This document shows, piece after piece, positions 50,313-52,478 of a DNA stretch of 64,000 nucleotides (position 1 is its first letter; each line of letters begins with the position of its first letter). Below the pieces are notes generated by a model. The model saw nothing but the letters and a program-made list of their open reading frames with translations. It made no database searches and had not been told where the DNA came from. The translations under genes and the position numbers were made by a program. This DNA comes from Pararhizobium sp. IMCC21322 (GTDB taxonomy: Bacteria; Pseudomonadota; Alphaproteobacteria; Rhizobiales; GCA-2746425), in contig NZ_CP132335.1 of assembly GCF_030758295.1 (NCBI RefSeq), positions 4,254,412-4,318,411 on the forward strand, in the 5' to 3' direction.

Positions 50313-51635
50313 ATGGCGAAAGCTCTGCGCAATGGCGTGTCCGCACTGGAAGCCACGACCAAGGTAACCTTGGCCATTCTGGCGCTGGCCAGTGGCATCT
50401 ACACCTATCTGGGTGTTCGGGGCTTGTTGGACGGCACCGCCAATCTGGTGTTTTTCGGCGCTGTCATCTATTCCGTCGCCGTCTCCGTGGGGATTTACGC
50501 GTTCTGGTCTTATCTGATCCGGTTTGCCCCCCATTTGCGCTCGGCATCCGGCCGCGGTCTTCTGTTCATGGCAATCGGCCTTGGTAGTGTCATGATTATT
50601 GCCATGTCGTCCTGGTTGAATGCAGCAGCATTGGCTGGCAGCGCCGCATTGGAGCAGCACCTGGCCGTTACCATTGAAGATTACCAGCAGGATCTCAGCG
50701 AAGCCCACAACAATGCACTGGCGGCCCAAAGCCTGCTGCCAGATATTCAACTGGCCGCTGACCGTTTCCAGCGACTGTCCCGCGAAGAGGAAGCATCAGG
50801 CGCACTGACAGGCACATCCGGTTCGGGCACCGTGGTTCAGTTACTGCGGCAAATGTCCACCCAATTGGATGGACTGGCGCGAGAAGTGGAAGCCTCCCGC
50901 ACGCAGGTCAAACAATTGTTTGAAGAGGGCGGCGAACAGCTTAACCGCATGCGGCGACTGGTATCAGCCTCCGGCCCAATTGCGCCGCGCAGCGATGCCT
51001 TTTCCGAAGAAGCTGTCACGCTGACAGGCGTTATTTCAGCTCTGCAGGAAACCTCCATCGCGCCTTCTGTAAAACGTGCGGCAGATGATCTGACCCGCAG
51101 CTTCATCGCCCCGGTGGCCGACGGCAGCACCCAGGATTTGGCGTCGCGCCAGAACGCCATGGTTGAGCGCGTCCGTGATGCCGTCGGAGGACAAGGCGAG
51201 GCATTGTCTGAAGCAGCCAATGAAATCCTCAGCCGCGAAGAGGTTAAGCCGAAACGCTTTGTGCCCATATCCGCGCCTGAAGCTGTGCTGCGCTACGCCA
51301 ATGATTTTTTGCCCAGCTGGGCCGGTGCAATTTCCATCGATCTTATGCCAGCAGTGCTGATTTTCATTCTTTGTATCGTCCATGCCGCCATCCGCCGCGA
51401 AGAAGACCCGGACGCGTTTGAAAACACCATGACAGCCGCAGATATGGTGCAGGCACTTTCACTCTTTGATCGTTTGCAGGACCATCGCCGCGACCGCTAC
51501 CGCACTGAGTTTGACCGTGGTCGCAGCAAAGACGAACCGGACCGGACAGACCCAGTGCCCGATGAGATGCATCCCGACGACCCAAAAATTGCACAAATAA
51601 AGCCCGTCGATGAGCGTGAACCAAGGCGGCGCTGA
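50313..51635 (+). CDS. Membrane protein with long periplasmic/cytoplasmic coiled coil, unknown
   Basis: About 440 residues of no family I recognise. Three transmembrane helices lie in the first 110 residues (KVTLAILALASGIYTYLGVRG; NLVFFGAVIYSVAVSVGIYAFWSYL; GRGLLFMAIGLGSVMIIAMSSW). A long helical region follows (about 115-310), with Glu/Gln/Arg heptads such as RQMSTQLDGLAREVEASRTQVKQLF. A fourth helix (SIDLMPAVLIFILCIVHAAI, about 345-365) precedes a charged, Asp/Arg-rich tail. ATG 50313 follows GAGG. Its stop is 3 bp before the ClpP-like gene, so the two are almost certainly made together. Confidence 0.85.
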   Translation: MAKALRNGVSALEATTKVTLAILALASGIYTYLGVRGLLDGTANLVFFGAVIYSVAVSVGIYAFWSYLIRFAPHLRSASGRGLLFMAIGLGSVMIIAMSSWLNAAALAGSAALEQHLAVTIEDYQQDLSEAHNNALAAQSLLPDIQLAADRFQRLSREEEASGALTGTSGSGTVVQLLRQMSTQLDGLAREVEASRTQVKQLFEEGGEQLNRMRRLVSASGPIAPRSDAFSEEAVTLTGVISALQETSIAPSVKRAADDLTRSFIAPVADGSTQDLASRQNAMVERVRDAVGGQGEALSEAANEILSREEVKPKRFVPISAPEAVLRYANDFLPSWAGAISIDLMPAVLIFILCIVHAAIRREEDPDAFENTMTAADMVQALSLFDRLQDHRRDRYRTEFDRGRSKDEPDRTDPVPDEMHPDDPKIAQIKPVDEREPRRR

Positions 51636-51638
51636 TAC

Positions 51639-52478
51639 ATGAGTTCCGTAGAGATTGACCCGCTCGAAGAAGAGCACGTCAAGACACTGTCCGACCACTT
51701 TCAGGACGCGATGCTCTGGCTTGTCTTTCTGGCCATGATTTCCATTGCTGGCTACGTGCTGATGCTCGACTACCGTCATCTGCAATATGAAGACCGTCTG
51801 GCTGGCATCGAAGATACCGGCGAGCCGGTGCCCATGAGACCGGTCAGCCCGAGCGATCAGATACGGCCCTATGTGCCAAGTTCACGGCCTGTTGGCCCGG
51901 GTCGTGGCGCACCTGATCTTACCCCCTTCGACATTGAAACGGACTTGCAGGAAAAAAGCGCCATGGTCTTCAAGACCGATGGAAAAGGCGCTCTGTTGGG
52001 CTTTGGCACCATTACACAGGGCACCGCCGAAGTATTTGAACGCGCCCTTTTGGCACGGGAAGAAGATATCACGGAAATCGTCTTGCATTCCCCTGGTGGT
52101 TCCGTACAGGACGCCCTGACAATGGCCCAGCTCATTCGCGACAGCGACATGAACACGCGGATTGTTGCCAATGGTTATTGCGCCAGTTCCTGCCCGCTCG
52201 TGTTTGCAGGCGGTGTGGAGCGCGAAGTTCACGCATCAGCCTGGGTTGGTGTCCACCAGGTTTACACACCGCCGAGCAGCTTCGGCAGCATACAGCAGGG
52301 CATGGACCAGGCCCAACGCATCAGTGCCCAATGCCAGCAGGCACTAGTGGATTACGGCGTCGACCCCGCACTCTGGATCAAAGCCATGGAAACCCCCAAG
52401 GACCAGCTTTACGTCCTGACTGTGGAAGAGCTGGAGGAACTTAAACTGGCTACCAAGGTCGAGGTACCGGAAGCGTAA
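51639..52478 (+). CDS. Membrane-anchored ClpP/SppA-fold serine protease-like protein
   Basis: A 279-residue protein. One transmembrane helix (AMLWLVFLAMISIAGYVLML, about 24-43) is followed by a Pro-rich linker and a ClpP/crotonase-fold domain (about 105-270). The segment EIVLHSPGGSVQDALTMAQLIR forms the oxyanion-side loop. NGYCASSCPLVFAGG carries the likely nucleophile Ser183 or Ser184 between Cys181 and Cys185. VGVHQVY carries the likely catalytic His206. It resembles uncharacterised alphaproteobacterial periplasmic ClpP-like proteins. ATG 51639 overlaps no gene but is 3 bp after its partner. Confidence 0.82.
   Translation: MSSVEIDPLEEEHVKTLSDHFQDAMLWLVFLAMISIAGYVLMLDYRHLQYEDRLAGIEDTGEPVPMRPVSPSDQIRPYVPSSRPVGPGRGAPDLTPFDIETDLQEKSAMVFKTDGKGALLGFGTITQGTAEVFERALLAREEDITEIVLHSPGGSVQDALTMAQLIRDSDMNTRIVANGYCASSCPLVFAGGVEREVHASAWVGVHQVYTPPSSFGSIQQGMDQAQRISAQCQQALVDYGVDPALWIKAMETPKDQLYVLTVEELEELKLATKVEVPEA

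Follow-up and report, generated by a model that had tools for sequence, protein, structure and literature searches.

A conserved alphaproteobacterial gene pair encoding a four-pass membrane protein and a membrane-anchored protein with a predicted ClpP fold

The window analysed here is a 64,000-nt stretch of one contig of the 5.25 Mb genome of Pararhizobium sp. IMCC21322. It contains two intact plus-strand genes, here called COIL (50313..51635, 440 aa) and CLP (51639..52478, 279 aa), which lie 3 bp apart with the junction TGA-TAC-ATG, just as a sequence-only reading of the window had described them; the COIL start at 50313 is backed by the aligned start of relatives. COIL is predicted to be a four-pass inner-membrane protein with a periplasmic helical bundle at about residues 108-306, between transmembrane helices (TM) 3 and 4, and CLP to consist of a single N-terminal TM (residues 25-43) and a ClpP-fold domain facing the periplasm. 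Two plus-strand features stand out in COIL: the GALTGTSGSGTV loop (residues 163-174; 50799..50834), which is kept even in distant homologues that lack CLP, and Asp343 (51339..51341) in the DLxP motif of TM4, which is common to the distant homologues. In CLP, on the same strand, the stretch Cys181-Ala-Ser183-Ser184-Cys185 (52179..52193) places the predicted nucleophile Ser183 between two invariant cysteines, and His206 (52254..52256) aligns with the catalytic His of ClpP; the CASSC motif and the positions of Ser183, Ser184 and His206 had been read correctly from the sequence. The nearest records with the pair are an Alphaproteobacteria MAG (98% COIL identity) and Rhizobiales bacterium IMCC20636 (94%).

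The pair was followed across genomes in three differently anchored samples, obtained with a CLP query (41 genomes), a COIL query (199 genomes of the order) and a COIL profile (the GTDB contig collection). The CLP query matched in 19 of the 41 genomes and gave 13 near-full-length matches at E 2.8e-34 or better, all 13 with COIL directly upstream, counting one locus (L009) whose contig begins in COIL so that only the COIL end is visible; 13 partial CLP matches had no COIL inside their short flanks. The COIL query matched in 49 of the 199 genomes, the match being close in 42 (E 7.1e-120 or better; COIL at least 57% identical to the window protein), and CLP lay downstream on the same strand in 30/30 loci, a count that covers 30 of the 42 close-COIL genomes. 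The COIL profile found 392 relatives, and CLP follows COIL in 79 of the best 80, hereafter the named loci; at the 80th (L105) the contig ends inside the COIL frame. At one locus of the 79, L068:10290-12000, the two genes are about 1.7 kb apart. The coupling of the two genes proposed from the window alone thus holds in all three samples, and far from being rare neighbours elsewhere they adjoin in nearly every named locus. On these sequence data COIL and CLP look like an obligate partnership, and COIL now defines an uncharacterised membrane family that is tightly conserved and has a protease as its near-obligate partner.

The distribution of the pair is patchy within the order (close COIL in 42/199 genomes) and rare outside it. 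Among 289 genomes sampled across the class, the window genome and three more from outside the order have a close COIL, with CLP adjoining each by coordinates; four more genomes held a distant COIL only, and two held a CLP-core match without COIL. The pair also occurs on large replicons, namely pSymB of S. meliloti and plasmids of Phaeobacter, Paracoccus and Shinella. On the Phaeobacter inhibens plasmid pP88_a (L168:6870-10892), an MgtC/SapB gene precedes the pair and a lytic murein transglycosylase gene follows it. S. meliloti and Phaeobacter are genetically tractable, and the presence of the pair in both makes its function directly testable.

No family in Pfam, NCBIfam or PADLOC reached its cut-off with COIL; the Pfam scan gave no SPFH domain, its rows at E<=1 being two other families below cut-off. 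Four hydrophobic regions were found at about residues 17-35, 38-69, 78-108 and 332-363. The AlphaFold2 model (mean pLDDT 81.2, from an alignment that drew on 55 of the 80 named loci) has helices at 2-40, 43-74 and 78-139, more helices as far as residue 306 and finally a long one at 329-364 that spans the fourth hydrophobic region. The four-helix part of the earlier description is borne out by these regions, but the long coiled coil is not, since several helices rather than one extended coil are predicted between TM3 and TM4. Over 81 rows the mean number of Lys and Arg residues was 2.9 at positions 64-81, 2.0 at 357-371 and 0.02 at 101-115. Because the first two loops are positive and the third is not, hydropathy and charge together suggest that COIL has both termini cytoplasmic and its bundle periplasmic. 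Foldseek returned no match for the COIL fold at E <= 0.001; the best matches were chains of the tweety homologue TTYH2 (from E 4e-3, TM-score about 0.2). With VIA-align, designed bundles gave Z up to 13.1 (rmsd 3.5, 184 aligned), ahead of ClyA, TorS and McpS sensor domains, and for the modelled structure these matches are no more than the level that VIA-align expects for helical bundles generally.

CLP scored 21.7 bits against the Pfam ClpP family (PF00574), narrowly over the cut-off of 20.2, and phmmer against solved structures returned Coxiella ClpP at E 5e-6. A read-through AlphaFold2 model, whose alignment drew on 62 of the 80 named loci, had a mean pLDDT of 83.5, with the ClpP-core blocks mostly at 94-98 and falling to 72 around model residues 651-660. 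The 50 Foldseek matches listed for this model were all ClpP chains (E 4e-6 to 2e-5), with TM-scores by target of 0.48-0.68, mostly about 0.6 or more. As modelled, CLP has the ClpP fold. Its Ser183 and His206 align with the nucleophile Ser and the His of ClpP, and far from being poorly conserved both are invariant, together with Cys181, Cys185 and Ser151-Pro-Gly-Gly, in 80/80 rows (the window and 79 loci); position 184 is Ser in 60 rows and Ala in 20. Leu257 of CLP aligns with the catalytic Asp of ClpP. CLP has no Asp at this canonical site, which is Leu in 74/80 rows, and the acids nearby vary (Asp255 in 35/80 rows); position 158 is Asp in 78 rows and Glu in two. Since the canonical Asp is replaced and nearby acids are variable, CLP may use a dyad or another acid, for example at position 158, or may no longer be active. 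Lys and Arg residues are more numerous before the CLP TM than after it in 53/80 rows and less numerous in 14/80; in the window protein one such residue precedes the TM and two follow it, so there the positive-inside rule leans slightly away from a periplasmic ClpP domain. Judged by hydropathy and charge, a periplasmic location of this domain is likely but not certain.

CLP is 33-44% identical to the window protein (two nearest of 23 rows excluded, in an alignment that drew on 23 of the 79 named loci), compared with 53-64% for COIL (three nearest of 55 rows excluded); by these alignments COIL is the more conserved of the two. CLP is probably not the housekeeping ClpP, because its own genome holds two stronger ClpP matches (L172 and L173). 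A further ClpP-like match over the family cut-off lies in the same genome in a 336-aa open frame (L174, contig position 1003404-1003586). Outside the ClpP family, CLP gave weak matches to phage ClpP-like and head-maturation proteases in PHROGs (E 1e-7 or worse), matches to NCBIfam phage protease models far below cut-off (E 7e-8) and a weak match to NfeD1b_N below cut-off (E 0.005); the defence libraries gave no match for the pair. COG3904-type periplasmic ClpP-like proteins form a family with a CASAC-type motif; the L188 sequence carries SCASAC.

COIL homologues also occur apart from CLP. No CLP match was found among the called ORFs of eight distant COIL homologues (L137-L144) even at E 10, or within the short loci of four further ones from the class-wide sample (L180-L183) at E 1e-3, and HMM and hhalign comparisons found no CLP-like partner among 22 neighbouring ORFs in mobile elements. 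Profile comparison with hhalign joined the paired COILs and the eight unpaired ones at Prob 100 and E 2e-39. In five of the eight, the fetched region includes a VirD4/TraG-type coupling protein (L137, L139, L140, L141 and L144; in L141 as two pieces), a check that is limited in L138 and L142 by contig ends beside COIL; in L143, an 11 kb contig, tblastn with three coupling-protein queries found none. In three extended elements (G003, G194 and G102), Pfam identified a MobA/VirD2-type relaxase in 3/3 and ArdC in 2/3, and a large serine recombinase was present in 2/3. Small cysteine proteins adjoin COIL in several unpaired loci, and seven small proteins from these elements had no Pfam match above cut-off. 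The recurring set on the elements (L137:4113-9141 and L138-L144, with flanks L190-L195) comprises the coupling protein, the COIL homologue and small proteins, the last being by eye of three kinds with W-C-Y...C-x-F/W, CxC and RRP motifs. This links the COIL family with an unnamed set of genes that recurs on mobilizable elements of alphaproteobacteria.

A COIL tree of 41 rows put all 29 paired COILs on one side of a branch with support 95/91, recovered in 98% of 200 bootstrap trees; the tree is unrooted, and the unpaired rows sit on very long branches in an unsure order. On this evidence the association with CLP would have changed once. The conserved COIL loop persists in the 12 unpaired rows (G163 and G167 in 12/12, G170 in 10/12 and G172 in 11/12), and so, to varying degrees, do S99 (11 rows), N103 (8), E159 (12), R226 (9), D343 (11) and P346 (10). 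Because distant COILs without CLP share these core residues, the COIL core can probably act without CLP, and COIL probably has an independent function.

The CLP gene of S. meliloti 1021 (L165:7259-8041, NC_003078) encodes 261 aa, or 243 aa when read from the second Met, and in a sister strain the pair is followed by genes for an ion transporter, an inositol monophosphatase and an ABC ATPase. The printed length of SMb20360 is 243 aa (PMC3462710), and SMb20362 and SMb20363, as named in the available passages of PMC12542648, fit the downstream product order of the sister strain. From this agreement in length and gene order we infer that the S. meliloti CLP is SMb20360 and COIL its upstream neighbour. 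By the passages of PMC3462710 that deal with it, SMb20360 resembles ClpP and was published as a COG0740/ClpP-like ORF; its reporter fusions were expressed in nodules but not in free-living cells, and its disruption mutants supported normal alfalfa growth. The same source, citing Pobigaylo 2006, describes a tagged SMb20360 mutant as highly competitive under salt/detergent stress. On that account, cells under envelope-type stress can gain from losing CLP. This speaks against CLP simply being a protective protease and favours a function that is costly and conditional; the S. meliloti unit appears to be conditional rather than housekeeping. An envelope-stress role, which the sequence-only reading had suggested, thus has indirect support, insofar as a stress phenotype is cited for SMb20360, but that phenotype is a gain on disruption, the opposite of what a protective protease would give. 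The literature searched contained no mention of SMb20359, the tag expected for the S. meliloti COIL; the pair can hence still be called undescribed in that literature, as had been proposed, whereas its presumed protease counterpart already has published mutants (PMC3462710).

We weighed several explanations of how the pair may act. In the window, CLP is followed on the same strand by genes for a SixA-type histidine phosphatase (PF00300, E 1e-9; the sixA model at E 3.5e-7, below that model's cut-off), YcjX (DUF463, E 2e-165) and YcjF (TIGR01620, E 1e-98) and by a thioesterase-like gene, and the run of the pair with SixA, YcjX and YcjF that had been noted earlier is indeed present. Joint action of the pair with these three proteins would fit this run and its recurrence downstream of the pair in 5/80 named loci (L057-L060 and L099, which belong to close relatives and to Afifella/Afifellaceae). 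It would also fit the CLP-anchored sample of 13 loci, where sixA and ycjX sit within the short flanks at the window locus, in four genus mates and in L007, which comes from another family. However, tblastn at E 1e-5 found no sixA-ycjX-ycjF in the other 75 of the 80 named loci, and cut flanks do not account for the absence, because in 66 of these 75 the sequence continues downstream of the pair for 3 kb or more, and in 59 for 5 kb or more; nor did such a cluster appear among the recurrent neighbours beyond 3 loci. As a general system the pair-sixA-ycjX-ycjF module, which the sequence-only reading had proposed, is largely refuted: the place of the pair before these genes is a trait of the window lineage and a few others, and joint action with them seems highly improbable. 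Clustering of the ORFs in about 6-7 kb around COIL gave no third constant neighbour, the commonest family (ABC-transporter ATPases) reaching 11/80 named loci, with the proviso that the greedy ORF caller at times chose wrong-frame ORFs and a small conserved gene could escape; one larger cluster, in 23 loci, consists of ORFs called antisense to the pair. With sixA-ycjX-ycjF in so few loci and no third constant gene, the pair therefore stands as a unit alone.

We give a probability of about 0.5 to the reading that COIL and CLP form a two-gene inner-membrane proteolysis unit in which COIL is the dedicated membrane partner of CLP. CLP would be held by its one N-terminal helix with the Ser183/His206 ClpP-fold domain in the periplasm, and COIL, with its four TM helices and periplasmic bundle, would hold CLP and deliver or gate envelope substrates; alternatively COIL itself would be the substrate, as in the archaeal STOPP/stomatin pair. 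By analogy, COIL is best read as a membrane scaffold, substrate receptor or substrate of CLP; the reading builds on the gene pairing, the predicted fold, the conserved residues and the single group of paired COILs in the tree, and adds the membrane topology, contact between the two proteins, proteolysis and its substrates by inference. The distant COILs without CLP, with their probable function of their own, count against a two-gene unit, and so does the cited S. meliloti phenotype, a gain rather than a loss under stress. That COIL is the specific substrate, clipped by CLP so that a membrane function is switched off or released, seems possible but rather unlikely. The one-to-one pairing without a third constant neighbour would suit it, as would the existence of COIL apart from CLP, which may make it worth controlling, and there is a precedent in the archaeal protease 1510-N, which specifically cuts the C-terminal hydrophobic region of its operon partner, the p-stomatin PH1511 (PMC3795559, in the passages available). 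Yet the most conserved COIL loop (163-174) is equally conserved in homologues without CLP and so would not be a CLP-specific cleavage site. Replacement of the canonical Asp by Leu, and the two cysteines invariant in 80/80 rows that flank the presumed nucleophile, could instead point to CLP as a pseudo-protease, whose ClpP fold serves for binding and not for cutting and which stabilises COIL or reads the redox state of the periplasm through Cys181/Cys185. This we consider unlikely, as Ser183, His206 and SPGG are invariant in the same rows, which is unusual for a dead enzyme. More speculatively, and in our view improbably, COIL may be a membrane component of mobile-element DNA transfer captured by the chromosome under a dedicated periplasmic ClpP-fold protease, possibly redox-gated by Cys181/Cys185 astride the nucleophile; the two would then form a new kind of switch in the envelope, giving up fitness under stress in return for some other benefit, perhaps control over DNA that enters or leaves the cell.

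Compared with known systems, SMb20360 is the presumed counterpart of CLP itself, and the passages of the literature that treat it make no mention of an upstream partner. The COIL homologues on mobilizable elements belong to the same family as the paired COIL and have the same loop and TM4 motifs, but differ in lacking CLP and, in five of eight, in having a coupling protein in the fetched region. DUF4407 (PF14362) resembles COIL by eye in TM layout, the Gly-rich loop and E/DxxP in the last TM. The loop and last-TM motif of one DUF4407 protein (L150:1234-2577) look COIL-like by eye. Profile comparison gave a best hhalign Prob of 10.5, which is not significant, with a five-row DUF4407 alignment (searches for more rows in plasmids returned 1 and 4 records); Pfam gave no DUF4407 row for COIL at E<=1, and the window genome had no DUF4407 match. 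With ClpP (S14) peptidases CLP has in common the predicted fold and the Ser and His positions, and it differs from them in its TM anchor, its cysteine pair and the Leu at the Asp position. The closest parallel in layout is the STOPP/NfeD-type 1510-N with PH1511, where, in the available passages of PMC3795559, the gene of a membrane-bound serine protease likewise lies beside that of a dedicated membrane partner. That system has a Ser-Lys dyad and an SPFH partner, whereas CLP has an invariant Ser and His, and its partner is a four-pass helical protein that gave no SPFH match; the likeness to PH1510/PH1511 is therefore one of arrangement.
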